Below, in pieces: positions 613-40,753 of a stretch of 44,531 nt of DNA. A model generated the notes under the pieces. The model searched no databases and had not been told where the DNA came from. It was given only the letters and a program-made list of their open reading frames with translations. The translations under genes and the position numbers were made by a program. Positions within the stretch are counted from its first letter, which is position 1; each line of letters begins with the position of its first letter. Source of the DNA: Bacteroidales bacterium (GTDB taxonomy: Bacteria; Bacteroidota; Bacteroidia; Bacteroidales; UBA932); assembly GCA_017848635.1 (NCBI GenBank), contig JAFIHK010000121.1, forward strand, positions 1 through 44,531, read 5' to 3'.

Positions 613-669
613 ATGAGATCGCAAAACTTACATATTGTAACCCTGCACCTGCTGGATATTAAATCTTAG
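613..669 (+). CDS. leuL: leu operon leader peptide (18 aa)
   Basis: An 18-codon reading frame, MRSQNLHIVTLHLLDIKS, lies just upstream of the leuA terminator hairpin. Four of its 18 residues are leucine; three of these codons (CTG at 643, 649 and 652) are clustered, and two Ile and one Val codon are also present. This is the signature of a leader peptide whose translation senses charged tRNA-Leu. The CTG codons overlap the first strand of a set of competing RNA stems (see the attenuator entry). It ends with TAG inside the second strand, as expected for ribosome-mediated attenuation. No clear Shine-Dalgarno is visible. The gene name is used by analogy with enterobacterial leuL; there is no sequence homology. 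Confidence 0.75.
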   Translation: MRSQNLHIVTLHLLDIKS

Positions 670-737
670 GGGCAGTTTACGGTATGTACCGATAATAAGT
701 AAAATTGTAAGGCTGCCCCACAAGGGCAGCCGTTTTT
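643..737 (+). promoter_or_regulatory. Leucine transcription attenuator (competing stems 1:2, 2:3, 3:4)
   Basis: Four RNA segments can pair in exclusive ways. Segment 1 (643-650, CTGCACCT, made of Leu codons) pairs with segment 2 (668-675, AGGGGCAG) with one mismatch. Segment 2 (669-678) can instead pair with segment 3 (710-719, AGGCTGCCCC) as a 10-bp antiterminator with two G-U pairs. Segment 3 (711-718) can otherwise pair with segment 4 (724-731) as a perfect 8-bp terminator stem followed by five T residues. Ribosome stalling at the Leu codons would cover segment 1, free segment 2 to hold segment 3, and allow read-through into leuA 9 bases beyond. A small CGGTA/TACCG hairpin lies between (680-691). 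Confidence 0.78.
711..737 (+). terminator. leu attenuator terminator
   Basis: GGCTGCCC (711-718) and GGGCAGCC (724-731) form a perfect 8-bp GC-rich stem with a 5-base loop, followed by G and five T residues. It ends only 9 bases before the leuA start, which fits a conditional rather than an end-of-gene terminator. Confidence 0.85.
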
Positions 738-746
738 GTTAATATT

Positions 747-2240
747 ATGGAAAAATTATTTGTATTTGACACTACTTTGAGAGACGGGGAGCAGGTTCCC
801 GGCTGTCAGCTTAACACTATTGAGAAGATAGAACTTGCCAAGGCTCTCGAAATAATGAGAGTGGATGTTATTGAATGTGGATTTCCGGTATCCAGTCCCG
901 GCGATTTTAACTCAATTGTAGAGATATCTAAGGTTATAAAAGATTCTACAATTTGCGCCCTGACAAGGGCTGTTGAAAACGATATAGATGTTGCCGCTGA
1001 TGCTCTGCACTTTGCAAAACGTAAAAGAATTCACACCGGAATCGGAACCTCCGACTCCCATATAAAATATAAATTTCAATCAAACAGGGAGGAGATCATC
1101 GAGAGGGCTGTCAAAGCAGTGAAGTACGCCAGACGCTTTGTTGACGATGTGGAGTTTTATGCAGAAGATGCAGGAAGAACCGAAAATGAGTATCTGGCAA
1201 GAGTCATAGAGGCGGTTATTGCTGCAGGGGCAACAGTCGTGAATATTCCGGACACTACCGGTTACTGTACACCATATGAGTACGGCGAGAAGATCAAATT
1301 CCTGGTTAATAATGTTCCCAATATCGATAGAGCTGTAATATCAACTCACTGTCATAATGATCTGGGAATGGCAACAGCCAATACGCTTGCAGGTGTAATT
1401 AATGGTGCCAGACAGGTAGAGGTAACAATAAACGGAATAGGAGAGAGGGCCGGTAATACTACAATGGAAGAGGTAGTTATGGCTATAGAGAGAAGAAAAG
1501 ATATCCCTGTTTATACAGATATTGACACTAAAATGATCATGAAGAACTCCCGTCTCGTTTCTACACTAATGAGAATGCCCGTTCAACCTAACAAGGCTAT
1601 TGTAGGGAGAAATGCTTTTGCGCACTCATCGGGGATACACCAGGATGGAGTGTTGAAAAACAGGGAGAGTTATGAGATTATCGACCCGGCAGATGTTGGG
1701 GTCAATGAGTCTACAATAGCTCTTACTGCCAGAAGCGGCAGGGCAGCACTTAAGCACCACTACACCAGGCTGAATATTGAGTTATCCTCAGAGGAGCTTG
1801 ATCATGCCTATGAGAAGTTCTTACGTCTGGCCGATGTAAAGAAAGACATCAACGATGATGACCTGCTTGTAATTGTAGGAGTGAACAGAACATCTCAGTC
1901 ACAAAGAATTAAACTGAAATTTCTACAGGTTGTATGTGGAAAATCCTCTGTTCCGATGGCAACGGTTAAGCTAATTATAGATGGTGAAGTAGTAACTGCG
2001 ACCAGTTCGGGCAACGGACCGATTGATGCAGCCTTTAATGCAATCAAGAGCCTGGTACATCGCAAAATTGTTCTTGAAGAGTTCCTGGTTCAGACAATTA
2101 CCAAGGGGGCAGATGATGTCGGGAAGGTTCATGTCCAAATTGAAAACAGGGGAAATCTCTATTATGGATTCTCTGCAAATACCGATATTATAACAGCATC
2201 TGCCGAAGCTTTGGTAGCTGCAATCTCAAAAATAATCTGA
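747..2240 (+). CDS. leuA: 2-isopropylmalate synthase
   Basis: This enzyme catalyses the first committed step of leucine synthesis, joining acetyl-CoA and 2-oxoisovalerate to give 2-isopropylmalate. The 497-residue length fits bacterial LeuA. The N-terminal HMGL-like TIM barrel carries DTTLRDGEQ (residues 8-16, with Arg12 and Asp13), the metal ligands His201 and His203 in HCHND, and the GERAGNT motif (Asn237). A C-terminal domain from about residue 370 matches the leucine-binding regulatory LeuA dimer domain and includes the [14 protein letters not shown] stretch. It is the first gene of leuACDB and is controlled by the attenuator directly upstream. Homocitrate synthase and citramalate synthase are related alternatives, but the operon context fixes the assignment. 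Confidence 0.95.
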
Positions 2241-2241
2241 T

Positions 2242-3636
2242 ATGGGAAAAACAATCGTAGATAAAATATGGGAGTCACATATTGTAAGTGAAATAGAGAA
2301 TGGCCCATCTGTACTCTATATCGACAGACACTTTATTCATGAAGTAACGAGTCCGCAGGCCTTCTCGGGGCTGGATAAAAGGGGACTGCCCGTTTTTCGC
2401 CCGGGAAACACATTTGCCACTTGTGACCACAATGTCCCTACTAAAGACCAGGAGAAGCCGATTCGTGATGAATCATCAAGGATTCCGGTTGAAAAACTGG
2501 CTCAGAATACTCAAAAACATGGGATAAGCTACTTCCCGTTAGGTCACAAAAACAATGGAGTCGTTCATATTATTGGACCTGAGCTCGGACTTACGCAATG
2601 CGGTATGACGATTGTTTGTGGCGATAGTCATACATCCACACACGGAGCTCTTGGAAATATCGCTTTTGGAATTGGTACCAGCGAAGTAGAGATGGTACTT
2701 GCAACTCAGACGCTTTTGCAGAAGAAACCTAAGCAGATGCTTATTAAGGTTGAGGGAGCTCTTGCCAGTGGAGTATGTTCAAAGGATATAATACTCTATA
2801 TAATATCAAAGCTGGGAACCTCTTCAGGAACGGGTTATTTTGTCGAATTTTCCGGAAGTACAATATCTGCACTCTCAATGGAGGAGAGAATGACAATATG
2901 TAATATGAGCATTGAGATGGGTGCAAGGGGAGGTATCATAGCTCCGGATGAGGTTACAATTGAATATCTTGAGGGGCGTGAATTCTCTCCAAAGGGTGAA
3001 AATTGGAAAACTATGAGCAGGCAGTGGTTGAGCTTAAAAAGCGATGAGGATGCTCATTTTGATGTTGTCCACATTTTTAATGCTGAGGAGATTGAACCTA
3101 TGATTACCTACGGCACAAATCCGGGTATGGGGATCCCTATCGGCTCGAGAGTTCCGTTGATAACTAAAGAGTCATCGCAGGAGGCCTCTTTTATGAAATC
3201 GATTGAATATATGGGCTTTGAGATGGGGGAGAGGCTAATTGGTAAGGCCATTGATTATGTATTCATTGGAAGTTGTACTAATGGAAGAATTGAGGATTTC
3301 AGAGCATTTGCTTCTATTGTAAAAGGCAGAAAAAAATCACCGGATGTAGTGGCGTGGCTTGTGCCCGGATCGAAAAGAGTCGAAGGGCAGATAGAGAAGG
3401 AGGGTCTTGGTGATATTTTACGAGAGGCAGGGTTTGAAATCAGAGAACCCGGTTGTTCTGCCTGTTTAGGAATGAACGAGGATAAAGTTCCGGCAGGAAA
3501 ATATGCCGTGTCTACATCCAACAGGAATTTTGAAGGCAGACAGGGGCCAGGTGCAAGAACCATTCTTGCCGGGCCTTATGTGGCTGCAGCAGCAGCAGTA
3601 ACAGGAGTTATAACCGATCCAAGAGAATTTTTATAA
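2242..3636 (+). CDS. leuC: 3-isopropylmalate dehydratase large subunit
   Basis: This aconitase-family subunit, with LeuD, isomerises 2-isopropylmalate to 3-isopropylmalate in the cytoplasm. The 464-residue protein has the three cysteines that bind the [4Fe-4S] cluster: Cys345 in GSCTNGR, and Cys405 and Cys408 in [17 protein letters not shown] near residue 130 is also characteristic. It starts one base after the leuA stop codon, so the two are probably translationally coupled. Homoaconitase is a related possibility, ruled against by the leu context. Confidence 0.95.
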
Positions 3637-3637
3637 T

Positions 3638-4228
3638 ATGAGTTTTGAAAAATTTGAAGTGAGAGTCTCGACCATTAAGGTCCTTCCTCTCGAAAATATC
3701 GATACCGATCAGATTATTCCTGCCAGATTCCTTAAGACAACAACAAGAGAGGGTTTTGGTGATAATCTTTTTTATGACTGGCGCTATAATTCAGATGGAT
3801 CTAAGAACGAGTCATTTGTTATTAATAGCGTAGATAATGGAGCAAAATTTTTAGTGGCCGGAAGAAATTTCGGATGCGGATCCAGCAGAGAGCATGCAGC
3901 ATGGGCTCTGTACGATTATGGATTCAGAGCAGTAATCTCCTCATTTTTTGCAGATATCTTCCGTAATAATGCACTAAACAACGGACTTTTGCCGGTTCAG
4001 GTTTCGGATGAATTTCTCTCTAAGATCTTCAGTGAGGCAGATAGTGATATTAACGCACAAATTGAGATAAATTTGAAAGAGAGGAGTGTAAAGATTTTAA
4101 GCACAGGAGAGTATGAACTCTTTCCTATTGATGATTATAAACAGAGTTGCCTTATTAATGGTTACGATGATATTGATTTTCTATGTGCTCTGAAAAACAA
4201 AGTTGAAGATTTCGAAAACAGGAGATAA
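3638..4228 (+). CDS. leuD: 3-isopropylmalate dehydratase small subunit
   Basis: This is the small (swivel-domain) subunit that completes the isopropylmalate isomerase with LeuC. The 196-residue length is normal for LeuD. The LENIDTDQIIPARFL stretch near the N-terminus and GRNFGCGSSREHAAWAL near residues 76-92 are family hallmarks. It follows leuC by one base, and leuB starts one base after its stop. Confidence 0.95.
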   Translation: MSFEKFEVRVSTIKVLPLENIDTDQIIPARFLKTTTREGFGDNLFYDWRYNSDGSKNESFVINSVDNGAKFLVAGRNFGCGSSREHAAWALYDYGFRAVISSFFADIFRNNALNNGLLPVQVSDEFLSKIFSEADSDINAQIEINLKERSVKILSTGEYELFPIDDYKQSCLINGYDDIDFLCALKNKVEDFENRR

Positions 4229-4229
4229 T

Positions 4230-5294
4230 ATGAAAAAGAGAGTTGCAGTTCTTCCGGGAGATGGTATAGGTCCGGAGATTATTGAACAGTCAATCAAAGT
4301 TTTAAAAGCAATTGAAAATAGATTTGGCCACCAGTTTGAACTTGTATATGGAGATATCGGAGCATGTGCCATAGATAAATACTCCGATCCATATCCTGAA
4401 CTGACTCATAAAATATGCCTTGAGAGTGATGCTATCCTTTTTGGAGCAATAGGTGATCCAAAATATGACAACGATCCAAAGGCCAGAATAAGACCAGAAC
4501 AGGGTTTGCTTAAGATGCGCAAAGAGTTGGGATTGTATGCAAACATTCGTCCTGTTCAGATTTACAAATCTCTTTCACATAGATCTCCTTTAAAGGAGGA
4601 GAAGATTGAGGGGGTGGACCTTGTGGTTGTGAGAGAGCTTACCGGTGGTATCTATTTTGGAGAGAAGGGTCGTAAAAATGGTGGGAGAGAGGCATTTGAT
4701 AACTGTACATATTCCGATTATGAGGTTGAACGGATTGCAAGATTGGCGTTTGAATTGGCTGCAAAACGTAAAAAAAGGGTGACACTCGTAGATAAAGCGA
4801 ATGTGCTTGAAACTTCAAGATTATGGAGAGAGGTGGTTACTGAGGTTCATAAAGAGTATTCTGATATATCACTGGATTATCTGTTTGTAGATAATGCAGC
4901 AATGCAGCTTGTAACAAATCCTGCCAAATTTGATGTTATTCTTACCGAAAATATGTTCGGAGATATTCTAAGCGATGAGGCATCTGTACTGAGCGGCTCA
5001 ATCGGGCTGTTATCATCTGCCTCATTCGGAGAGAAATCACCTCTTTTTGAACCTATTCACGGCTCTTATCCGCAGGCAGCGGGAAAGAATATAGCAAATC
5101 CAATTGCTACAATACTCTCTCTTGCAATGATGTTTGAATATTTTAATGCGACAGATGAGGCAAAAATTATAAGGGAAGCTTGTGCATGGATTATTGAAAA
5201 GGGCTACCTTACCGAGGACCTCTCAGATAAAAAAATCTCCTGCTCAACAAGTGAAACAGGAGATTATATCGTAAACTATATCAGTTTATTATAA
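4230..5294 (+). CDS. leuB: 3-isopropylmalate dehydrogenase
   Basis: This enzyme oxidatively decarboxylates 3-isopropylmalate to 2-oxoisocaproate with NAD+, the last leu-specific step before transamination. I chose the ATG at 4230 (354 aa) over an upstream in-frame ATG at 4203, because MKKRVAVLPGDGIGPEI is the family N-terminus and GGAGA lies just before it at 4221-4225; the longer form would overlap leuD. Visible hallmarks are RPEQGLLKMRKELGLYANIRPV, the substrate/metal site ENMFGDILSDEASVL and the cofactor-side HGSYPQAAGKNIANP. The last 6 bases overlap the convergent phosphate transporter gene, and a minus-strand terminator hairpin is embedded in its 3' coding end. Confidence 0.95.
   Translation: MKKRVAVLPGDGIGPEIIEQSIKVLKAIENRFGHQFELVYGDIGACAIDKYSDPYPELTHKICLESDAILFGAIGDPKYDNDPKARIRPEQGLLKMRKELGLYANIRPVQIYKSLSHRSPLKEEKIEGVDLVVVRELTGGIYFGEKGRKNGGREAFDNCTYSDYEVERIARLAFELAAKRKKRVTLVDKANVLETSRLWREVVTEVHKEYSDISLDYLFVDNAAMQLVTNPAKFDVILTENMFGDILSDEASVLSGSIGLLSSASFGEKSPLFEPIHGSYPQAAGKNIANPIATILSLAMMFEYFNATDEAKIIREACAWIIEKGYLTEDLSDKKISCSTSETGDYIVNYISLL
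5229..5265 (-). terminator. Terminator of the DUF47-PiT operon, inside leuB
   Basis: Read on the minus strand, AATCTCCTG and CAGGAGATT (5257-5265 and 5234-5242) form a perfect 9-bp stem with a 14-base loop, followed at once by a run of T residues (seven A on the plus strand at 5229-5235). It sits 24 bases past the PiT stop codon and within the leuB coding region. On the plus strand there is no T-run, so it should act in one direction. Confidence 0.7.
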
Positions 5295-28967: not shown

Positions 28968-29618
28968 ATGAAAAATAAAGTAATCTCCTTGCAAGAAGCC
29001 GTCAATAAAGTAGAGGACGGTATGACTATTATGGTCGGAGGATTTCTGTCTAACGGATCTCCCAATGTAATTATGGACGCTCTGGTAGAAAAGGGAGTCA
29101 AAGATCTGACTCTTATCTGTAATGATACCTCATTCCCCGAAATCGGTCAGGGCAAACTTGTAGCAGCAGGTTTGGTTAAAAAAGTAATTACATCGCATGT
29201 GGGAACTAACCCAGTTACCGGAGATCTGATGAATGCAGGAAAACTGGAAGTTGAATTTTCTCCTCAGGGAACTCTTGCTGAGAGAATCAGGGCTTATGGT
29301 GCAGGTTTGGGTGGAATATTGACTCCAACTGGAATCGGTACTATTGTAGAGAAAGGTAAGCAGATAATTGAGGTCAATGGAAAGAGATATCTGCTGGAAA
29401 CTCCTCTAAGGGCAGATGTTGCCTTTATTGGTGCATCTATTGCCGACAGAGCGGGTAATCTTTATTACAAAGGAAACTCAAGAAATTTTAACCCATTGAT
29501 GGCAATGGCCGCCGATACTGTTATCGCAGAGGTAGATGAGGTTGTGGAGATTGGCGTCATTAAGCCGGAGGATGTTCATACATCTGCAATATTTGTAGAT
29601 TTTATTTACCATAAATAA
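28968..29618 (+). CDS. atoD: Acetoacetate:butyrate/acetate CoA-transferase subunit A
   Basis: A 216-residue family I CoA-transferase alpha subunit. [20 protein letters not shown] and [21 protein letters not shown] (near residue 108-128) are family signatures, and [24 protein letters not shown] near 160 is typical of AtoD/CtfA-type subunits. In lysine fermentation it moves CoA from butyryl-CoA to the acetoacetate released by Kce, freeing butyrate. It is the first gene of the operon and is separated from its partner subunit by nine genes. Acetate rather than butyrate specificity cannot be excluded. Confidence 0.88.
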
Positions 29619-29625
29619 CATTATT

Positions 29626-30012
29626 ATGTCAGAGAGTGTAATGATCAGACTGCGTATGAGCTCACACGATGCTCACTACGGTGGGAATCTTGTTGATGGA
29701 GCAAGAATTGTTCAACTTTTCGGAGATGTTGCAACTGAACTGCTAATCCGCAGGGATGGTGACGAAGGACTCTTCAGAGCGTACGATTCAATAGAATTTT
29801 TAGCACCGGTATATGCCGGAGATTATATTGAAGCAACAGGTGAGATTGTATCTGAGGGCAATACATCAAGAAAAATGGTCTTTACTGCAAAGAAGGTGAT
29901 AATGCCAAGACCGGAAATATCCCCTTCGGCCGCCGATTTTATGGAGGAACCGGTAATCGTGTGCAGAGCCAGCGGAACCTGTGTTACACCTAAAAATTGT
30001 CAAAGAAAATAG
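29626..30012 (+). CDS. kal: 3-aminobutyryl-CoA ammonia-lyase
   Basis: A 128-residue hotdog-fold protein that removes ammonia from L-3-aminobutyryl-CoA to give crotonyl-CoA. The opening [32 protein letters not shown] and [17 protein letters not shown] follow the hotdog/thioesterase pattern, and the size matches Kal of characterised lysine fermenters. Operon position between the CoA-transferase and kce supports the assignment. Without the context it would be called a generic hotdog thioesterase. Confidence 0.88.
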
Positions 30013-30014
30013 AT

Positions 30015-30836
30015 ATGGAAAAACTTATTATAACCGCCGCTATCAGCGGAGCAGAGGTTCTTAAAGAGCATAACCCTGCAGTTCCATATACCAAAGAGGA
30101 GTTTGTAAGGGAGGCTAAAAGCGCATTTGATGCTGGTGCTTCAATCATACACCTTCACGTCAGAACCGATGAGGGTAAACCGACTCAAGACAAAAATCGT
30201 TTCAAGGAGATTATGGATGCTATATATGCAGCATGTCCCGGAGTGATTATTCAACCATCTACAGGAGGTGCTGTTGGAATGTCTAATGATGAGAGGCTTC
30301 AACCAACCGAACTCAATCCTGAAATGGCAACATTGGATTGTGGAACACTTAATTTTGGAGGAGACGATATCTTCGAAAATACCGAAAACACAATCAAATA
30401 TTTCGGAAAGAGAATGATAGAGCGTGGAATTAAACCCGAGCTTGAGGTTTTCGATAAGAGTATGATAGATATGGCTCTTAGACTGCACAAAAAGGGGTAT
30501 ATCGAGTCACCTATGCACTTTGACTTTGTAATGGGCGTTAATGGAGGTATCTCAGGAGAGTTGAGAGATTTTGTATTCTTAAGAGGCAGTATTCCTCAAG
30601 ATGCCACATATACAGTTGCAGGTGTTGGCAGATATGAATTTACACTTGCTGCCGCCGCAATAATAGATGGTGGCCATGTTAGAGTCGGACTTGAGGATAA
30701 TGTATATATTTCAAAGGGAGTTCTTGCAAAATCTAACGGAGAGCTAGTGGAAAAAGTTGTGAGACTTGCTGCCGAATTTGGCAGAGAAATAGCTACTCCT
30801 CAGGAGGCAAGAGCAATTTTAGGGATTGTAAAATAG
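30015..30836 (+). CDS. kce: 3-keto-5-aminohexanoate cleavage enzyme
   Basis: Kce reacts 3-keto-5-aminohexanoate with acetyl-CoA to give L-3-aminobutyryl-CoA and acetoacetate. I start it at 30015 (273 aa), two bases after kal stops; an upstream in-frame ATG at 29997 would overlap kal and add six unlike residues. The TIM barrel has zinc ligands His46 and His48 in IIHLHVR, and Glu227 in GLEDNVY is the probable third ligand. PSTGGAVGM and GSIPQDATYTVAGVGR are typical of this DUF849/BKACE family. Other BKACE members act on different beta-keto acids; the operon fixes the lysine role. Confidence 0.93.
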   Translation: MEKLIITAAISGAEVLKEHNPAVPYTKEEFVREAKSAFDAGASIIHLHVRTDEGKPTQDKNRFKEIMDAIYAACPGVIIQPSTGGAVGMSNDERLQPTELNPEMATLDCGTLNFGGDDIFENTENTIKYFGKRMIERGIKPELEVFDKSMIDMALRLHKKGYIESPMHFDFVMGVNGGISGELRDFVFLRGSIPQDATYTVAGVGRYEFTLAAAAIIDGGHVRVGLEDNVYISKGVLAKSNGELVEKVVRLAAEFGREIATPQEARAILGIVK

Positions 30837-30858
30837 AAATTAACTAACTATAAATTTT

Positions 30859-31899
30859 ATGAAAAAAGGTAACAAATATGGGATTCACAGGGTAATCTCA
30901 CCAAAGGGTGTATTACCTCAACCTGCAGACAAAATTGACAATAATATGGATGAGATCTATGATAATGAGATTCTCATCGATGTTCAGACACTTAATATTG
31001 ATTCTGCCAGCTTCACTCAAATTGAAGAGCAAGCCGGCGGAGATAAGGCAAAAATTGCCGAAATAATGCTTTCGATTGTTGAAAAGCAGGGAAAACACAG
31101 GAATCCCGTTACCGGATCGGGCGGAATGTTATTAGGTACTGTTGAAAAGATTGGTGATGCATTAATTGGCAAAACCGATCTCAAAGTGGGGGATAAAATA
31201 GCAACACTGGTATCACTCTCTCTCACTCCGTTACGAATTGATAAAATTAAGGATATACGTCCTGATATTGATCAGGTGGATATTGACGGAAAGGCCATCC
31301 TTTTCGAAAGTGGTATATATGCCAAGATTCCTGCAGATATGCCTGCAAACCTGGCTTTATCTGCCCTGGATGTAGCAGGAGCTCCTGCTCAGACAGCAAA
31401 ATTAGTTAAACCTGGAGATACAGTATTTATCATCGGAGCTGGCGGAAAATCTGGTATGCTCTGCTGTTACGAAGCTAAAAAGAGAGCAGGAATAACCGGT
31501 AAGGTTATTGGTTTAACTCACAGTGAAAAGAGTACAAAAAGGCTTCAGGAGCTTGGTTTCTGCGACTATGTATTTGCAGCAGACGCAACACAGCCTGTTC
31601 CTGTTCTTGATAAGATAGAGGAGCTTACCGGAGGGAAAATGTGTGATGTTACAATTAATAATGTGAATATCACTGATACAGAGATGACTAGTATTCTTTG
31701 TACAAAGGATACAGGAGTGGTTTACTTCTTCTCAATGGCCACCAGCTTTACAAAGGCTGCACTTGGTGCAGAGGGAGTAGGTAGCGATGTTACCATGATA
31801 GTTGGAAACGGATATACAAAAGGACACGCTGAAATCACCCTCCAGCTCTTAAGAGAGAGTGAGAAACTTAGAAAAGTATTTACTGAACTATATGCATAA
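30859..31899 (+). CDS. kdd: L-erythro-3,5-diaminohexanoate dehydrogenase (copy 1)
   Basis: Kdd deaminates L-erythro-3,5-diaminohexanoate oxidatively to 3-keto-5-aminohexanoate with NAD(P)+. The 346-residue protein opens with YGIHRVISPKGVLPQPA, typical of the family, and has a Rossmann nucleotide-binding loop FIIGAGGKSGMLCCYEA near residue 193. The C-terminal FFSMATSFTKAALGAEGVG block is shared with copy 2. It is intact and in frame. The second kdd starts 8 bases before its stop, in another frame (ATGCATAA). Confidence 0.92.
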   Translation: MKKGNKYGIHRVISPKGVLPQPADKIDNNMDEIYDNEILIDVQTLNIDSASFTQIEEQAGGDKAKIAEIMLSIVEKQGKHRNPVTGSGGMLLGTVEKIGDALIGKTDLKVGDKIATLVSLSLTPLRIDKIKDIRPDIDQVDIDGKAILFESGIYAKIPADMPANLALSALDVAGAPAQTAKLVKPGDTVFIIGAGGKSGMLCCYEAKKRAGITGKVIGLTHSEKSTKRLQELGFCDYVFAADATQPVPVLDKIEELTGGKMCDVTINNVNITDTEMTSILCTKDTGVVYFFSMATSFTKAALGAEGVGSDVTMIVGNGYTKGHAEITLQLLRESEKLRKVFTELYA

Positions 31900-32929
31900 A
31901 ATTGGTTGCCGATACGGTACGCACAGAGTTATTGAACCAAAGGGGACTCTTCCGCAGCCTGCTCTTAAGCTCGATAACAGTATGAGTATTTACAACAATG
32001 AAGTTCTCATTGAGGTAAAGACGCTTAATATTGACTCTGCATCATACAAGCAGATTAAAACAGCTTGCGGGAATGATCCTGCAAAAATGGAGCAGATGAT
32101 CCTGTCAATTGTAAATGAGAGAGGAAAAATGCAGAACCCCGTTACAGGATCAGGAGGAATGTTAATCGGTACAGTTAAAGAGATCGGAGCAGATTTTCCC
32201 GCATACAAGCTTAAAGTGGGAGATAAAATTGCTACTCTGGTATCCTTATCTCTGACACCACTTAAAATCAAAAAAATATTATCTATCTCGGCAGATTCTG
32301 AACAGATAGATGTAGTTGCTCAGGCTATTTTATTTGAAAGCGGTATTTATGCGGTTCTTCCCGATGATATTCCTGAAAAACTTGCACTTGCAGCACTTGA
32401 TGTTGCCGGTGCTCCTGCACAGGTGGACAGGCTGGTAACCGAGGGAGATATTGTATGTATTATCGGAGGTGGTGGTAAATCTGGCGTACTATGCAGCTAT
32501 CAGGCAATGCAAAATGTCGGTAATTACGGGAAAGTTATTGTGGTTGAATATTCTACCGAAAATGCACAACGTATAAAGGATTTGAATCTTGCAACCGATG
32601 TTATTATTGCCGACGCGACCAACGTAATGGACGTCTACGAAAAGGTTATGAAGATTACGGGAGGTAGAGGGTGCGATGTTACAATTAATAATGTAAATGT
32701 TCCATCAACAGAAATGACCTCAATTCTTATAACAAAAGGTCGGGGCAGTGTCTATTTCTTCTCTATGGCTACCAGTTTTACAAAGGCAGCACTTGGTGCC
32801 GAAGGAGTGGGAAAAGATATCAACCTAATTGTTGGAAACGGATATGCAAAAGGTCATGCGGACCTTACTCTTAACATACTCAGAGAATCTAAACCAATCA
32901 GAGAACTATTTGAAAAATTGTATATATAG
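31892..32929 (+). CDS. kdd: L-erythro-3,5-diaminohexanoate dehydrogenase (copy 2)
   Basis: A 345-residue paralogue of the gene directly upstream. I start it at 31892 (MHKIGCRYGTHRVIEPKG), so the two genes overlap by 8 bases; an earlier ATG at 31859 would extend into copy 1 with no family support. It keeps the Rossmann loop (CIIGGGGKSGVLCSYQA), NPVTGSGGMLIGTV and FFSMATSFTKAALGAEGVG. By eye about three residues in five match copy 1, with differences spread evenly, so both copies look functional and not recently duplicated. They may form a hetero-oligomer or differ in cofactor or substrate. Confidence 0.9.
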   Translation: MHKIGCRYGTHRVIEPKGTLPQPALKLDNSMSIYNNEVLIEVKTLNIDSASYKQIKTACGNDPAKMEQMILSIVNERGKMQNPVTGSGGMLIGTVKEIGADFPAYKLKVGDKIATLVSLSLTPLKIKKILSISADSEQIDVVAQAILFESGIYAVLPDDIPEKLALAALDVAGAPAQVDRLVTEGDIVCIIGGGGKSGVLCSYQAMQNVGNYGKVIVVEYSTENAQRIKDLNLATDVIIADATNVMDVYEKVMKITGGRGCDVTINNVNVPSTEMTSILITKGRGSVYFFSMATSFTKAALGAEGVGKDINLIVGNGYAKGHADLTLNILRESKPIRELFEKLYI

Positions 32930-32935
32930 AAAGAT

Positions 32936-34180
32936 ATGTCAATAAGCAGAAGAGAAAAGATGTTTCCGGGAGTTACCGATGAACAGTGGAATGACTGGAA
33001 ATGGCAGGTCAAAAACAGGGTTGAAACCCTTGACCAGTTGAAAAAGTATATAACACTTACAACCGAAGAGGAGGAGGGGGTTAAACAGTCTCTCCAGACA
33101 TTAAGGATGGCAATCACTCCATACTACCTCTCTTTAATTGACCCCGATAACCCAAATTGTCCGGTAAGATTACAAGCTATTCCTAAGGGGCAGGAGACAC
33201 ATCTCTCTGCTGCCGATCTGCTTGATCCTCTTCACGAAGATTCGGACTCTCCGGTTCCGGGATTGACTCATAGATATCCGGACAGAGTTCTTCTTCTTAT
33301 AACTGATATGTGCTCAATGTACTGCAGACACTGTACAAGAAGGAGATATGCAGGTCAAAAGGATAATGAGTCGCCGGCAGATTATATACAGCAGGCTATC
33401 GACTATATTGCAAGAACTCCTCAGGTACGTGATGTCCTGCTTTCAGGAGGTGATGCACTTATGGTATCCGACGCAAAACTGGAATCAATTATTAAAAGAT
33501 TGAGAGCAATTCCTCACGTAGAGATAATAAGAATCGGATCCAGAACTCCTGTGGTTTGTCCACAGAGAATTACAGAAAGTCTTGTAGAGATGCTTAAAAA
33601 GTATCATCCAATATGGTTGAATACCCATTTTAACCATCCTAATGAAATTACGGAGGAGTCAATCAAAGCCTGCGAAAGAATGGCAAATGCAGGTATACCA
33701 TTGGGTAATCAGTCAGTACTGTTGAAAGGCATTAACGACTGTCCAAATATTATGAAGAGATTGGTTCACGGCTTGGTAAAAATGAGAGTAAGACCTTATT
33801 ATATCTATCAATGCGATTTATCGCAGGGACTTGAACACTTCAGAACTCCAGTCTCAAAGGGTATTGAGATAATTGAGTCATTAAGAGGTCACACTTCAGG
33901 ATATGCAGTGCCTACATTTGTTGTAGATGCACCAGGCGGAGGAGGAAAGACTCCGGTTATGCCAAATTATGTTATTTCTCAGGCTCCCGGAAGAGTAGTG
34001 TTGAGAAATTTTGAGGGCATTATTACAACATATACTGAACCGTTAGACTATGAGAATAAGTGTAATTGTCCCGATTGTAATAATGGTGACAAGGTAGAGG
34101 GTGTTGCCTCTCTGCTTAGGGGACAGAGATTGTCAATTGAACCAGAAGTTTATGACAGAAAATCGCGGTTCCACAAATAG
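32936..34180 (+). CDS. kamA: L-lysine 2,3-aminomutase
   Basis: A radical SAM enzyme that converts L-lysine to L-beta-lysine, the entry to the pathway. The 414-residue protein has the cluster-binding Cys126-x3-Cys130-x2-Cys133 (MCSMYCRHC), the PLP lysine Lys338 in PGGGGKTPVMPNY, and C-terminal zinc-type cysteines (CNCPDC). The spacing and numbering match the characterised clostridial enzyme within a residue. The N-terminal WNDWKWQVKNRVETLDQL is also typical. Related EpmB and glutamate 2,3-aminomutases are less likely given the operon. Confidence 0.95.
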   Translation: MSISRREKMFPGVTDEQWNDWKWQVKNRVETLDQLKKYITLTTEEEEGVKQSLQTLRMAITPYYLSLIDPDNPNCPVRLQAIPKGQETHLSAADLLDPLHEDSDSPVPGLTHRYPDRVLLLITDMCSMYCRHCTRRRYAGQKDNESPADYIQQAIDYIARTPQVRDVLLSGGDALMVSDAKLESIIKRLRAIPHVEIIRIGSRTPVVCPQRITESLVEMLKKYHPIWLNTHFNHPNEITEESIKACERMANAGIPLGNQSVLLKGINDCPNIMKRLVHGLVKMRVRPYYIYQCDLSQGLEHFRTPVSKGIEIIESLRGHTSGYAVPTFVVDAPGGGGKTPVMPNYVISQAPGRVVLRNFEGIITTYTEPLDYENKCNCPDCNNGDKVEGVASLLRGQRLSIEPEVYDRKSRFHK

Positions 34181-34185
34181 TATAT

Positions 34186-35217
34186 ATGCCGTTTATAAAG
34201 GATATTCTTAAGCACAGAAGTCTTGCCGTAGCCGGAATGGAGAAAAATACAGGCAAGACTGAGTGTCTTAATTATATTTTGGAAAGAATAGAGAGTAAAA
34301 CATTAAAGATTGCTGTTACATCAATTGGAGTAGATGGAGAATCTACAGATATTGTCACAAGTACATCAAAGCCTGAAATTATAATTAAAGAGGGCATTTA
34401 CTATGCGACTGCCGAAAAGTTCTTTAAAACCAGAGAGTTGGTCTCTGAAATAGTGGACTTGGATTATTATAGTACTGCTGCAGGTAGAGTGGTAACCTCC
34501 TTAGCACATTCTGCCGGCAAAGTTATACTGGCAGGACCATCAGAATCGTCCGCATTAAAGAGCTGGATGAACAGGTTGGGGAGAGAGAGGGGAATTGAAC
34601 ATTTTATAGTTGACGGAGCTCTATCAAGAGTTAGTCAGGCATCTCCGGCTATTTGTGATGCTTTGATACTTGCAACGGGTGCTTCGCTCAGTATAAGTGT
34701 TAATACATTGGTTTCAAAAACTATACACTTGACTGAGCTAATAAAGCTGCCGGCAACCGAATCACTCTCTGAGACAAAAGCAGATAATCTGCCAAATGGA
34801 ATATACTCGATTAATGGGAGTGAAGTTGTAACTCTATTCTCCGGGAGTGTATTTAATATTGACGGAGAATCATTAAAGATAATTGCAAAAGAGAGTTCAA
34901 TATATTTGTGTGGAGTATTGAGTGACAGGTTTATCGAAAGAGTTAAGTGCCTGAAGGAGATTAATATTAAAAATCTTATAATTAAGGATTTTACTCGAAT
35001 TTTTCTCTCTCCGGAAAATATGATATGGTTAGATCATATCGGAATCAGGTTAGAGGTTGTTAAGAGCAGTAATTTACTTGCTATATGTGTTAATCCTGTC
35101 TCACCTTCGGGTTATACTCTTGATTCGGCTCAGGTTTGCGATTTAATTGCGGAGAGAAGCGGGATTGCAGTTTATGATATATACAGATTAAGGGATGAAA
35201 TTAAGAAATGCTATTGA
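34186..35217 (+). CDS. kamB: Lysine 5,6-aminomutase reactivase subunit KamB
   Basis: A 343-residue protein with an N-terminal P-loop-like motif, GMEKNTGKTE (near residues 17-26), and no other catalytic motif I recognise. Its position between kamA and a MutS-like gene matches KamB of lysine fermentation clusters, where KamB and KamC are thought to act as a reactivation system for the adenosylcobalamin-dependent 5,6-aminomutase. The role is inferred from context and family naming. kamC begins 23 bases before its stop in another frame, a sign of coupled translation. Confidence 0.8.
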   Translation: MPFIKDILKHRSLAVAGMEKNTGKTECLNYILERIESKTLKIAVTSIGVDGESTDIVTSTSKPEIIIKEGIYYATAEKFFKTRELVSEIVDLDYYSTAAGRVVTSLAHSAGKVILAGPSESSALKSWMNRLGRERGIEHFIVDGALSRVSQASPAICDALILATGASLSISVNTLVSKTIHLTELIKLPATESLSETKADNLPNGIYSINGSEVVTLFSGSVFNIDGESLKIIAKESSIYLCGVLSDRFIERVKCLKEINIKNLIIKDFTRIFLSPENMIWLDHIGIRLEVVKSSNLLAICVNPVSPSGYTLDSAQVCDLIAERSGIAVYDIYRLRDEIKKCY

Positions 35218-36532
35218 GATACCTTGCGGAATAAGGTACATGATTAATACTCTTGAAACAGCCTCACCTGTTTCAAAGAGGTATTTTCTTGATTCTTCGT
35301 TTCTTAAAGATCCAGAAGAGATTACTAGAGAATACAGTGCTATCAATGAGACTGTTAAAGATATACACAAGAGTGGTTCTACTGTAAATTTAATCTTCAG
35401 TTATATATCCGATCTTAAAGAGATACTTGGAACAATTGAAAAGTTATCATCCGGAGATACATTGGATGATGTTGAGCTATTCGAAATAAAGAGTTTTGCA
35501 TTCATAAGCGAAGCAATCTCCAACTCAATTCACCCATTGAATATTTTAATTCCAAGGGTTGAAAGTATGAAGCAGGTTATTGAGATTCTTGATCCTGACA
35601 GATCTGGTTCAAAGTCTTTCTACATTTTTGATTCGTACAGTGAAGAGCTTGCCCGTATAAGAAGAGAATTGAACTTAAATCCTGGTAATACAAGCCTTTA
35701 TAATAGTTCACTTTTATTAGAACATCAAATTAGAGAGAGAATCTGTTCTGAACTTAAAGTGTTTGGTAAAAATATTAGAGATAACTATTTAAAAATAATA
35801 AAATTAGATATTTTAATTTCTAAAGCTAGACAGATAATTAAACAGAAGCTTTGCATCCCTGAAATTTCAAAAGAGATGATTAGTTTTAAATCACTCTTTA
35901 ACCCGGAAGTTGAGTTCTATCTCTTACAAAATGGAAAGGAGTTTCAAAGAACAGATATTGATCTTACAAATGGTGTTTTGCTTATTACTGGTTCAAACAT
36001 GGGAGGAAAGAGCGTTCTATTAAAAACACTGGCTTTATCTCAGATTCTATGCCATTTTACACTTGGAATACCAAGTGAAAGAGCCAAGATAATGCTTTTT
36101 GATTCTGTGTCTTTACTTACAGGTGACGATCAGAATACAAAAACCGGCTACTCATCTTTCTCTTCTGAAATAATAAGGATTAATGATACAATATGCAGGT
36201 TAAAAAAAGGAGAGAGGTTGCTGGCACTTATTGATGAACCTGCCAGATCAACTAACCCCGCAGAAGGGAGCGCTCTTGCCGAGTCTCTTATAAATATACT
36301 CTCAGAAATAGGGACAGTTAGTGTAGTTACAACTCATTACTCCGTGACCACCGAACGTTGCCGGAGGAAAAGAGTCAAGGGGATTATTGATAATAAAATG
36401 GATTATTCACTTGTAGATGAGCAGGGTTATGAAGTTCCAAAGGAGGCAATTAATATTGCAAGAGTCCTTGGGGCAGATAATGAATGGATTGATAATGCGG
36501 AAAAAATATTCAATGAAAGGAAGCATATATGA
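35195..36532 (+). CDS. kamC: Lysine 5,6-aminomutase reactivase ATPase KamC (MutS-like)
   Basis: A 445-residue protein whose C-terminal third is a MutS-type ABC ATPase: Walker A in TGSNMGGKSVLLKTLAL, Walker B in LLALIDEPARSTNP and the His-containing VTTHYS switch. It lacks the mismatch-recognition N-terminal domains of MutS, so a DNA repair role is unlikely. With KamB it probably uses ATP to exchange damaged cobalamin on KamDE. The start at 35195 overlaps kamB; an internal ATG at 35240 is an alternative. The stop overlaps the kamD start by 4 bases. Confidence 0.85.
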   Translation: MKLRNAIEIPCGIRYMINTLETASPVSKRYFLDSSFLKDPEEITREYSAINETVKDIHKSGSTVNLIFSYISDLKEILGTIEKLSSGDTLDDVELFEIKSFAFISEAISNSIHPLNILIPRVESMKQVIEILDPDRSGSKSFYIFDSYSEELARIRRELNLNPGNTSLYNSSLLLEHQIRERICSELKVFGKNIRDNYLKIIKLDILISKARQIIKQKLCIPEISKEMISFKSLFNPEVEFYLLQNGKEFQRTDIDLTNGVLLITGSNMGGKSVLLKTLALSQILCHFTLGIPSERAKIMLFDSVSLLTGDDQNTKTGYSSFSSEIIRINDTICRLKKGERLLALIDEPARSTNPAEGSALAESLINILSEIGTVSVVTTHYSVTTERCRRKRVKGIIDNKMDYSLVDEQGYEVPKEAINIARVLGADNEWIDNAEKIFNERKHI

Positions 36533-38082
36533 AAAGTAAAATTGGACTGGATTTCAATAAAGTAGCGAGAGCACGAAATTTTGCATCGAGTATCGCGAAC
36601 GATGTTAATAGCTTTGTTTCGGGCTTTACAACAACAGCTGTTGAGCGAACTCTTTGCCGTCTTACCGGTATTGACGGAGTAGATGCAATAGGAGTACCTC
36701 TTCCTAATGTGGTTGTTGATTCTTTAAAGTCAAAAGGTGTACTTGGCGATGGAGTATTATACTACCTGACCAACGCATCGATAGCCTCCGGAAAGAGTTT
36801 TCAGGAGATAGCCGAGGAGATCGCCGAGAAAGGGCTTGATATTACCAGATTTCCGGCTGCCGAAAGAGGTATATTTGAGGCGAAACTATCTGAACTTGTT
36901 GCAGAATCGTTAGGAAGAATATCTGCCAATAGGAATAAAAGAGAAAAATTTATTTCTGAGCACGGAGAGGGGGAGAAGCCATATCTCTACGTGATTGTTG
37001 CAACGGGAAATATATATGAGGATGTTATTCAGGCTCAGGCAGCTGCTAGGCAGGGTGCCGATGTTATTGCGGTAATCAGAACAACCGGCCAGAGTTTGCT
37101 GGATTATGTTCCATATGGTGCTACAACAGAGGGATTCGGAGGAACATTTGCAACCCAGGAGAACTTTAGAATAATGAGGGCAGCTCTTGATGAAACCGGA
37201 AGAGAGTTGAATCGTTATATCAGACTATGTAACTACTGTTCAGGGTTATGTATGCCGGAGATTGCAGCAATGGGTGCTCTTGAGGGTCTCGATGTAATGT
37301 TGAACGATGCACTGTACGGAATTCTTTTCCGCGATATAAATATGCAGAGAACCTTGGTGGATCAATATTTTTCAAGAATAATAAACGGATTTGCCGGAAT
37401 AATAATAAATACAGGTGAAGATAACTATCTGACTACCGCCGATGCTTTCGAAGAGGCACATACTGTGTTGGCATCAGACCTCATTAATGAGCAACTTGCT
37501 CTTTTGGCAGGTATTCCTGAGGAGCAGATGGGTCTCGGACACGCATTTGAAATGGATCCTGAACTGGAGAACGGGTTTCTTTATGAGTTAGCTCAAGCCC
37601 TGATGACCAGAGAGATATTCCCTAATTCTCCTCTCAAATATATGCCTCCTACAAAATTTATGACAGGAAATATATTCAAGGGTCATATTCAGGATGCGCT
37701 TTTTAATATGATCGGAATTTGGACAAGACAGGGCATTCAATTGCTTGGAATGCCAACTGAGGCTATTCACACTCCATTTATGTCAGATAGATATCTCTCG
37801 ATTGAAAATGCAAAATATATATTTTCAAATATGAGAAGTATCGGCGATGAAGTTGAATTTAAAGAGGGTGGAATAGTTAAAGAGAGAGCTACAAAGGTTC
37901 TTAATGAATCAATTTTGCTACTGGAGGAGATTCAGAAGGAGGGACTTTTTAACTCTCTGGAGAAAGGTATTTTTGGAAATGTTAAACGATCCAGAAATGG
38001 TGGAAAAGGACTTGATGGGGTTGTTAAAAAGGAGAATAACTATATTAATCCATTTATTGAAAAAATGAAAGGAGGCAAATAA
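36529..38082 (+). CDS. kamD: Beta-lysine 5,6-aminomutase alpha subunit
   Basis: The large subunit of the adenosylcobalamin- and PLP-dependent aminomutase that turns L-beta-lysine into L-erythro-3,5-diaminohexanoate. The 517-residue length and conserved blocks such as FVSGFTTTAVERTLCRLTGIDG, RTTGQSLLDYVPYGATTEGFGGT and MNDALYGILFRDINMQR-like sequence match KamD. It forms the TIM barrel that holds substrate and PLP over the cobalamin supplied by KamE. The stop overlaps the kamE start by one base (TAATG), fitting a fixed subunit ratio. Confidence 0.94.
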   Translation: MKSKIGLDFNKVARARNFASSIANDVNSFVSGFTTTAVERTLCRLTGIDGVDAIGVPLPNVVVDSLKSKGVLGDGVLYYLTNASIASGKSFQEIAEEIAEKGLDITRFPAAERGIFEAKLSELVAESLGRISANRNKREKFISEHGEGEKPYLYVIVATGNIYEDVIQAQAAARQGADVIAVIRTTGQSLLDYVPYGATTEGFGGTFATQENFRIMRAALDETGRELNRYIRLCNYCSGLCMPEIAAMGALEGLDVMLNDALYGILFRDINMQRTLVDQYFSRIINGFAGIIINTGEDNYLTTADAFEEAHTVLASDLINEQLALLAGIPEEQMGLGHAFEMDPELENGFLYELAQALMTREIFPNSPLKYMPPTKFMTGNIFKGHIQDALFNMIGIWTRQGIQLLGMPTEAIHTPFMSDRYLSIENAKYIFSNMRSIGDEVEFKEGGIVKERATKVLNESILLLEEIQKEGLFNSLEKGIFGNVKRSRNGGKGLDGVVKKENNYINPFIEKMKGGK

Positions 38083-38879
38083 TGAGCGGAGGACTTTATT
38101 CAATGCAGTCTAAAGAGTTTGATAAAACTCTTGATATGACAAAGATCAAACCATATGGCGATACAATTAATGATGGTAAGGTTCAGTTGAGTTTTACTCT
38201 TCCCGTTCCTGCCGGAGAGGAGGCTACAGAGAGTGCCAAAATTCTATTAAAAAAAATGGGGCTCGAAAATCCTCAGGTAGTATTCTTTAAAGAACTTACA
38301 CCGGGATATACATTCTTTAATTGCTACGGCTCTTTAACACATACAGTAGATTATTCATCGGTGTATGTTCCCAAGGTTGAGAGTAATAAAATGGATATGC
38401 ACGAAACCGACGAATATATCAGGGCAAATGTCGGTAGAAAAATTGTAGTAGTAGGAGCCAGTACGGGGACAGATGCACATACAGTTGGTATTGATGCGAT
38501 AATGAATATGAAAGGATATGCAGGGCATTACGGGCTGGAAAGATATGAAATGATTGAGGCATATAACCTTGGCTCACAAGTGCTTAATGAGGATTTTATT
38601 GCTAAGGCAATTGAGCTTAATGCAGATGCTTTGCTAGTTTCCCAGACTGTTACTCAAAAGGATGTCCACATCAAAAATATGGTTGAATTAGTTGAGCTGC
38701 TCGAAGCCGAAGGGCTAAGAGATAAGGTTATATTAATCTGCGGAGGCCCTCGAATCAACCACGAACTTGCAAAAGAACTCGGTTATGACGCAGGGTTCGG
38801 AATGAACTCATATGCCGATGATGTTGCATCTTTTGTGGCTCAGGAATTTGTCAGAAGAAATGAAGTAAAAACGCTATAA
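38082..38879 (+). CDS. kamE: Beta-lysine 5,6-aminomutase beta subunit
   Basis: The small, cobalamin-binding subunit of the 5,6-aminomutase. The 265-residue protein has the base-off/His-on motif Asp131-x-His133-xx-Gly136 (DAHTVG), and Lys144 in NMKGY stands where the clostridial enzyme forms its PLP aldimine. GGPRINHELAKELGYDAGFG near the C-terminus is the usual second half of the B12 Rossmann domain. It follows kamD with a one-base overlap and precedes the CoA-transferase B gene by 2 bases. Confidence 0.95.
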   Translation: MSGGLYSMQSKEFDKTLDMTKIKPYGDTINDGKVQLSFTLPVPAGEEATESAKILLKKMGLENPQVVFFKELTPGYTFFNCYGSLTHTVDYSSVYVPKVESNKMDMHETDEYIRANVGRKIVVVGASTGTDAHTVGIDAIMNMKGYAGHYGLERYEMIEAYNLGSQVLNEDFIAKAIELNADALLVSQTVTQKDVHIKNMVELVELLEAEGLRDKVILICGGPRINHELAKELGYDAGFGMNSYADDVASFVAQEFVRRNEVKTL

Positions 38880-38881
38880 AT

Positions 38882-39541
38882 ATGGATAAAAACGAGGTTA
38901 GAGAAGTCATTGCCAAAAGAGCTGCTCTCGAAATAAAAGACGGAGATGTTGTAAATCTGGGAATAGGTTTGCCAACATTGATCCCCAACTATCTTCCCGA
39001 GGGAATTACTGTAACGCTTCAATCCGAAAACGGTGTTTTAGGGATGGGACCGGAACCTGCATATGGTGAAGAGCTTAAATATTACACCAATGCTGGAAAT
39101 GGCTTTATCACTGTTAATCCAGGGGCATCATGTTTCGATTCTGCTCATTCATTTGCAATAATCAGAGGAGGTCACGTAGATGTAACCTTCCTGGGTGCTC
39201 TTGAAACCGATGAAAAAGGGAATCTCGCAAACTGGATCATTCCAGGTAAAAAGACACCAGGTATGGGAGGAGCAATGGACCTTTTGATCGGAGCAAGAAA
39301 AGTGATCTTAACAATGGAACACACAGCAAAGGGGGCCCATAAAATCTTGACAGAGTGTAATCTGCCACTTACAGCCTCAGGAGAGGTAGATATGATTATA
39401 ACTGAAATGGGAGTAATCGAGGTTACTAAAGAGGGTCTGCTGCTTAAGGAGATCCATCCTGAATTTACAATAGAGCAGGTTCAGGAGGCAACCGGCGCCA
39501 GATTGATTATTTCACCTGATCTCACAAAAATGAAAATATAA
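38882..39541 (+). CDS. atoA: Acetoacetate:butyrate/acetate CoA-transferase subunit B
   Basis: A 219-residue family I CoA-transferase beta subunit. The catalytic glutamate lies in LQSENGVLGMGPEP (near residues 49-62), and GGHVDVTFLGALETDEKGNLANW is typical. It should pair with the subunit A encoded at the start of the operon. Placing the two subunits at opposite ends of a dozen-gene operon is unusual, since they are more often adjacent. Confidence 0.9.
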   Translation: MDKNEVREVIAKRAALEIKDGDVVNLGIGLPTLIPNYLPEGITVTLQSENGVLGMGPEPAYGEELKYYTNAGNGFITVNPGASCFDSAHSFAIIRGGHVDVTFLGALETDEKGNLANWIIPGKKTPGMGGAMDLLIGARKVILTMEHTAKGAHKILTECNLPLTASGEVDMIITEMGVIEVTKEGLLLKEIHPEFTIEQVQEATGARLIISPDLTKMKI

Positions 39542-39547
39542 CTCATT

Positions 39548-40753
39548 ATGAAAAAAGTATTTATTGTATCGGCAAAGAGAACACCGATAGGAAAATTTGG
39601 AGGATCTCTTGCCTCTTTTTCACCGGGAGAACTTGGAGCAAAAGTTATCGGTGAGATTATCGCCGAAACAGGAATCGATGCCTCAAAAATTGATTCAGTG
39701 ATTGCCGGAAGTGTTTTAAATGCGGGCCAGTCTCAAGGTGTTGCCAGACAGGCTGCAATAAAAGCTGGTATTCCTGCAGAAGTGCCTGCGTATGGTGTTA
39801 ATATGGTTTGCGGTAGTGGTATGAAGGCCGTTATGAATGGATATGCAGAGATTTTATCCGGGGCCGCTTCTGTTATTATCGCCGGGGGAACAGAATCCAT
39901 GTCCAATGCTGGATGGATTCTCCCATCATCTGTAAGAAACGGTGTTAAAATGGGCAATATCGCTCTCACCGATCATATGGTTTTTGACGGATTGACTGAT
40001 GCATTCAGTAATGTCCATATGGGTATCACTGCTGAGAATATTGCAGAGAAATATGGTCTCACAAGAGAGGAACAAGATGAGTTTTCATACAAATCACAGG
40101 TAAAAGCAATCGCTGCTGTGGATAATGGATCTTTTGATGAGGAAAATATTAAAATAGAGATTGTTACAAAAAAGGAAACAATTGTGTTTCATAAAGATGA
40201 GTACCCTAACAGGGCCAGTACACCGGAAAAATTGGCAGCTCTTAAGCCTGCATTTAAGAAGGATGGCACCGTTACAGCAGGAAATGCATCGGGTGTAAAT
40301 GACGGAGCATCTTTTGTTATGCTTGCCGATGAAGAAGCTGTAAAGAGATTCAATTTAAAACCACTTGTGGAAATAATCTCTTGTGGACAGGGTGGGGTAG
40401 ATCCATCAATAATGGGAATGGGTCCGGTGCCAGCAATCAGAATGGCTCTTAAAAATTCCGGAATGTCTCTGAAAGAGATGGAGATTATTGAGCTTAATGA
40501 GGCATTTGCTGCCCAATCTTTAGGAGTAATCAAGGAGCTGTGTAACGAGCATGGAGTAGATAAAGACTTTTTTGAGGAGAGATGCAATCTAAACGGTGGA
40601 GCGATAGCTTTGGGACACCCAATAGGTGCATCGGGAAACAGAATTATCGTTACACTTATACACTTGTTAAAAAACAAGGGTAAATCAATAGGTCTCGCAT
40701 CACTCTGTATAGGGGGTGGAATGGGTACAGCAATAATTCTTAAACGCGTCTGA
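39548..40753 (+). CDS. Acetyl-CoA C-acetyltransferase (thiolase)
   Basis: A 401-residue thiolase that splits acetoacetyl-CoA into two acetyl-CoA, the last step of this branch. The acyl-accepting cysteine lies in NMVCGSGMKAV (near residue 88), NEAFAAQ and GGAIALGHPIGASG carry the catalytic Asn and His, and CIGGGMG holds the second cysteine. It is the last gene of the operon and supplies acetyl-CoA both for energy and for the Kce reaction. It overlaps the convergent SulP gene by 14 bases. No terminator is visible. Confidence 0.93.
   Translation: MKKVFIVSAKRTPIGKFGGSLASFSPGELGAKVIGEIIAETGIDASKIDSVIAGSVLNAGQSQGVARQAAIKAGIPAEVPAYGVNMVCGSGMKAVMNGYAEILSGAASVIIAGGTESMSNAGWILPSSVRNGVKMGNIALTDHMVFDGLTDAFSNVHMGITAENIAEKYGLTREEQDEFSYKSQVKAIAAVDNGSFDEENIKIEIVTKKETIVFHKDEYPNRASTPEKLAALKPAFKKDGTVTAGNASGVNDGASFVMLADEEAVKRFNLKPLVEIISCGQGGVDPSIMGMGPVPAIRMALKNSGMSLKEMEIIELNEAFAAQSLGVIKELCNEHGVDKDFFEERCNLNGGAIALGHPIGASGNRIIVTLIHLLKNKGKSIGLASLCIGGGMGTAIILKRV

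Follow-up and report, generated by a model that had tools for sequence, protein, structure and literature searches.

Transcription attenuation by leader peptides is a well-known type of control, and in a 2010 study that PMC4833913 cites, Lopatovskaya and colleagues reportedly predicted it in several phyla, which may include Bacteroidetes. One survey, from 2010, was aware of no case beyond Proteobacteria and Actinobacteria other than the Firmicutes example that it added itself (PMC2965389), and another, from 2013 and built on Rfam-type models, inferred that such attenuators may have arisen in gamma-proteobacteria and been transferred very rarely (PMC3766115). In Bacteroidota the mechanism is hardly described, and the examples are only briefly reported: the main text of a transcriptome study of Flavobacterium psychrophilum gives one sentence to "strong clues" for leader-peptide attenuation before amino-acid operons (PMC9723704), and a transcriptome map of Bacteroides thetaiotaomicron notes some short ORFs that resemble leader peptides (PMC7366714).

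The locus described here lies in a stretch of 44,531 nucleotides (hereafter the window), which is contig 59 of a 1.97-Mb genome with a completeness of 85%. The named relatives nearest to this genome are Bacteroidales genomes from metagenomes, including Candidatus Cryptobacteroides. The plus strand carries leuA (747-2240; 2-isopropylmalate synthase, TIGR00973, scoring above the cut-off), leuC (2242-3636), leuD (3638-4228) and leuB (4203-5294 as the ORF is listed; the real start may be further inside), giving the gene order leuACDB over ORFs spanning 747-5294. A reading of the sequence alone had proposed a ribosome-mediated leucine attenuator upstream of leuA, and this proposal is supported by folding, by a conserved leucine leader and by co-varying stems in relatives, so that expression of leuACDB is very probably set by the supply of leucyl-tRNA through such an attenuator. 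A probable lysine fermentation cluster lies further along the window (28968-40753); it encodes lysine 2,3-aminomutase and D-lysine 5,6-aminomutase together with a CoA-transferase and a beta-keto acid cleavage enzyme.

The leader ORF occupies positions 613-669 of the plus strand and encodes MRSQNLHIVTLHLLDIKS, with 18 codons running from ATG613 to a TAG stop at 667-669 and a start that agrees with the leader ATG of relatives. Its four Leu codons are at 628, 643, 649 and 652, and the three within 643-654 form a cluster that reads Leu-His-Leu-Leu, as the sequence-only reading had noted except that the three Leu are not consecutive. Relatives likewise keep a short ORF in which codons for leucine, the product of the operon, are clustered. 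By itself the cluster is not significant, as 13% of the 10-40-codon ATG frames in the window carry at least three Leu in four codons; the significance of the locus therefore comes from the stems (z of -3.2 to -3.8) and from conservation.

The leader RNA contains four plus-strand segments that pair in mutually exclusive ways: segment 1, the protector arm (629-650); segment 2, the partner of either segment 1 or segment 3 (669-683); segment 3 (704-719); and segment 4, the 3' arm of the terminator (724-731), followed by a U tract at 733-737. The three stems were folded separately (1:2 as 629-690, 2:3 as 667-722 and 3:4 as 708-738), and z was calculated against dinucleotide shuffles. The 1:2 stem has a folding energy of -23.0 kcal/mol (z -3.8) and consists of a 12-bp outer part (629-640 with 677-688) and an inner part, 643-650 with 669-675, in which 643-646 and 648-650 are the paired bases. 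The pairing of the Leu codons (643-650) with 668-675 put forward earlier thus holds as the inner portion of this stem, and the outer 12 bp had been overlooked. The 2:3 antiterminator (-20.1 kcal/mol, z -3.2) includes the previously indicated 10-bp pairing of 669-678 with 710-719 and is longer than that, with 15 bp predicted between 669-676 and 712-719 and between 677-683 and 704-710. The 3:4 terminator (-17.6 kcal/mol, z -3.7) is as it had been read: a GC-rich, perfect 8-bp stem (711-718, the part of segment 3 that serves as 5' arm, with 724-731) followed by G and T5 (733-737), with the T run ending 9 nt upstream of leuA ATG747. An intrinsic terminator lies between leader and leuA; a terminator scan detects the hairpin at 711-731, where shuffles of the 301-nt region are expected to give 0.2 terminator-like sites. 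The whole leader RNA folds to 1:2 plus 3:4, and when segment 1 is removed (RNA 668-738) the antiterminator fold (-23.6) is preferred over the terminator.

Segment 2 starts 17 nt after the last Leu codon (652) and 2 nt after the beginning of the stop codon, and the median distance from last Leu codon to segment 2 is 24 nt across 40 leaders. With the generally known sizes of ribosome footprints, these distances mean that a ribosome at the Leu codons would free segment 2 and a ribosome at the stop codon would cover it. From this geometry we infer the following response to leucine. Transcription would begin a few bases upstream of AUG613, going by the predicted position of the promoter, and a ribosome would load on an almost leaderless ORF. 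With ample Leu-tRNA, the ribosome would reach the UAG at 667-669 with its footprint over segment 2 (669-683), and after its departure segment 1 would capture segment 2, allowing 3:4 to form and transcription to terminate at 733-737. With scarce Leu-tRNA, the ribosome would stall at the Leu codons (643-654), covering segment 1 with its front edge just short of 669, so that 2:3 would pair, the terminator would not form and leuACDB would be transcribed.

The Leu run in the window, three Leu with a His between them, is weaker than that of relatives (SLLLLGL), and relatives in the clade mostly have 4-6 Leu per eight codons. This difference would fit a decaying attenuator, in which the stems form and the shortened run is nearly unresponsive in this species; we regard such decay as very unlikely, because the three stems are strong and exclusive and because segment 2 is suitably spaced from the Leu codons and the stop.

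Comparison of leuA upstream regions, which had been suggested as a check on the attenuator, found that relatives retain both the Leu-codon frame and mutually exclusive, co-varying stems. With a filter requiring a Leu-rich ORF of 10-40 codons and, 15-130 nt further on, a strong hairpin with a T run, leader and terminator were found together in 63 of the 117 distinct regions upstream of leuA, which come almost entirely from Bacteroidales, against a mean of 0.2 in dinucleotide-shuffled sets. The filter is strict, scoring some clear leaders as negative (L042, L060, L116 and L135 among them). Part of the negative regions seem, by reading, to run directly out of the preceding gene (several Marinilabiliales loci, for example), and others belong to a single genus, g15. 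In genus g15 of the family (L007, L008, L054 and L055) and in the similar locus L064, the leader before leuA is absent. A leader-like frame rich in Ile, Leu and Val was read on the opposite strand in two of these loci, L055 and L008 (in L008 on the minus strand, as MRNATISIIRLVLTLDLLVLVVSTL followed by an ilvD-like start), and in L008 a -7 box is placed just 5 nt upstream of the leuA ATG.

These counts bear on the reading in which the hairpin is merely the terminator of the FabH-like gene upstream and the small Leu-rich frame is due to chance. The hairpin does lie downstream of that gene, which ends at 516 on the same strand, and small Leu-rich frames are common, as noted above for the window. 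In the relatives tested, however, the FabH-like gene was found upstream of leuA in 0 of 23, although leader and terminator stay with leuA, and leuC follows leuA in all 23. The lack of conservation of this gene, the 63 of 117 regions against 0.2 expected and the co-variation of 2:3 described below led us to reject both the upstream terminator and the chance ORF, a combination we consider extremely improbable.

The antiterminator, which excludes the terminator, is maintained by co-variation. In 43 of the 67 genomes compared, the 2:3 duplex was stronger than in shuffled upstream sequence at p ≤ 0.05, with 0 of 200 shuffles matching it in the window. A MAFFT alignment of the clade aligned segment 3 well and the leader region poorly; co-variation was therefore tested by own-versus-foreign pairing instead of column counts, using a set picked for a recognisable terminator and not for 2:3 pairing. 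Segment 2 paired more strongly with segment 3 of the same genome than with those of other genomes, with a mean helix weight of 19.3 versus 14.8 (0 of 5000 permutations; 53 genomes, with kinship not fully removed), and the same held within the clade of the window, at 18.3 versus 15.2 (11 of 5000 permutations; 12 members, kinship again not fully removed). The 2:3 helices are diverse, including GGGGCAG/CTGCCCC, GAGGGCA/TGCCCTC, CGGGCGG/CCGCCCG and GAAGTGAG/CTCACTTC, and ungapped 2:3 pairing is weak in a few relatives (L038, L039 and L044).

The sequence-only reading had also remarked that few such leaders are described in Bacteroidota. This is correct for the literature, with its brief reports, and does not extend to the genomes, as the leaders are common in the order Bacteroidales. 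One of them belongs to Bacteroides fragilis (NZ_CP018937, L117), whose leuA leader is MNQSFIHILLCGIIILLAKVGGSECRA. In L117 and other Bacteroides and Parabacteroides loci, the leuA leaders mix Ile and Leu codons (HILLCGIIILL), whereas those in the clade of the window have mainly Leu, which suggests a shift in the amino acid that is sensed.

Searches of Rfam at gathering and relaxed thresholds matched no leader family, with no match to Leu_leader (RF00512) up to E 10; a weak Phe_leader match at the relaxed threshold (E = 2) was rejected, as it covers the terminator hairpin only. Control of the attenuator without translation of the leader, for example by a leucine-binding aptamer, a T-box or an RNA-binding protein, would suit the length of the 1:2 structure and the standing of the ORF as a predicted frame. 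Against it, the Rfam search matched neither a T-box nor an amino-acid riboswitch, and the 1:2 region of relatives has no common primary sequence or fold; what it shares is limited to an open frame with Leu codons and to the complementary segments. We therefore judge such control highly improbable, and favour attenuation by leader translation.

The start of this translation is placed close to a predicted promoter. A -7 element of the Bacteroidota TAnnTTTG type (consensus from PMC7366714), TATCTTCG, is located at 597-604, and a weak -33-like element, TTATG, is inferred at 575-579, 17 nt upstream of it, where relatives have TTTG or ATTG at similar spacing. The consensus position of the -7 element predicts a transcription start zone at 608-612. 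The earlier remark that leader start and transcription start nearly coincide is borne out insofar as the -7-like box ends 8 nt before ATG613, and, with such boxes centred around -7, a 5' UTR of 2-5 nt is probable for the leader ORF. The leader ATG is 7-8 nt downstream of the box in all 15 clade members (from the genus of the window, g12 and g4). Where a box can be recognised in other leaders from Bacteroidales, the best one is 10-43 nt away from the ATG; within the window, seven further genes have a box of this kind, at 16-31 nt upstream of their start. Translation from ATG577, which is in frame with the leader ORF without an intervening stop, would give a peptide of 30 amino acids (MISQKNNIFATVMRS...) within an attenuator that otherwise works as proposed. 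This start is very unlikely, as it overlaps the predicted promoter and the leaders of relatives start where ATG613 lies, at 7-8 nt past the -7 box.

With ATG613 as the start, it is quite possible, and here put forward tentatively, that one Bacteroidales clade (the genus of the window and at least two neighbouring genera) translates its leucine leader from a near-5'-terminal AUG. The phylum makes scant use of Shine-Dalgarno sites, and 5' UTRs below 10 nt are rare in it. In B. thetaiotaomicron about 3.7% of 5' UTRs are shorter than 10 nt (PMC7366714), and in F. psychrophilum 5.5% of mRNAs are leaderless (PMC9723704). If the leader is indeed translated in this way, quick ribosome loading at a 5'-terminal AUG could keep the first ribosome near RNA polymerase, as attenuation needs. 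Leaderless leader peptides are already known in Actinobacteria (PMC8079986, PMC5784534), so the near-leaderless leucine leader would be a variant rather than a new principle.

Predicted attenuators with His and Ile/Val/Leu leaders also precede hisG and ilvD in the source genome. Upstream of hisG (L137, G000:C41) are a His leader, MNRFFNTNSLHHHHLQLPGRPMTLLC, containing HHHH, and a terminator (AGGCTTGCC..GGCAAGCCT), the 5' arm of which pairs with an upstream segment as a competing antiterminator (-17.4 kcal/mol, 0 of 300 shuffles). Upstream of ilvD (L136, G000:C16), an Ile/Leu/Val-rich leader, MLILVLSLLNINNSVIIVMSQT, is accompanied by a terminator, the loop of which pairs with an upstream GGATCCC (competing pairing -20.8, p = 0.003). 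A search for trpE (PF04715) did not find it in the source genome, which at 85% completeness may reflect a true gap or a missing contig. Taken with the leuA leaders, the hisG and ilvD leaders would make classical leader-peptide attenuation a common control of leucine synthesis in Bacteroidales, including B. fragilis, and at least also of histidine and Ile/Val synthesis, although Rfam models miss it here. In these genomes, annotation can now include the short ORFs upstream of leuA, hisG and ilvD, which can also be tested in culturable Bacteroides.

Anatomically, the locus belongs with the enterobacterial leu attenuators, which act on transcription through a leader peptide, in agreement with the logic first read from the sequence. 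Like the enterobacterial leu attenuator (RF00512), it has a Leu leader ORF, exclusive 1:2, 2:3 and 3:4 pairing and an intrinsic terminator before leuA; unlike it, it gives no Rfam sequence or structure match and has a different leader peptide, a Bacteroidota promoter and a near-leaderless predicted start. With the leaders of F. psychrophilum it shares the phylum and the association with amino-acid operons, whereas the main text of that paper gives no leu anatomy or covariation (PMC9723704). The actinobacterial leu and ilv leaders (leuL1 and leuL2 of Streptomyces lividans, PMC8079986; ilvB of Corynebacterium diphtheriae, PMC5784534; the LEU element, PMC1262725) likewise have a Leu-rich peptide and, in some, a leaderless RNA; actinobacterial leuA leaders lack a typical terminator or have a pseudoknot, whereas the locus in the window combines a full intrinsic terminator with an antiterminator.
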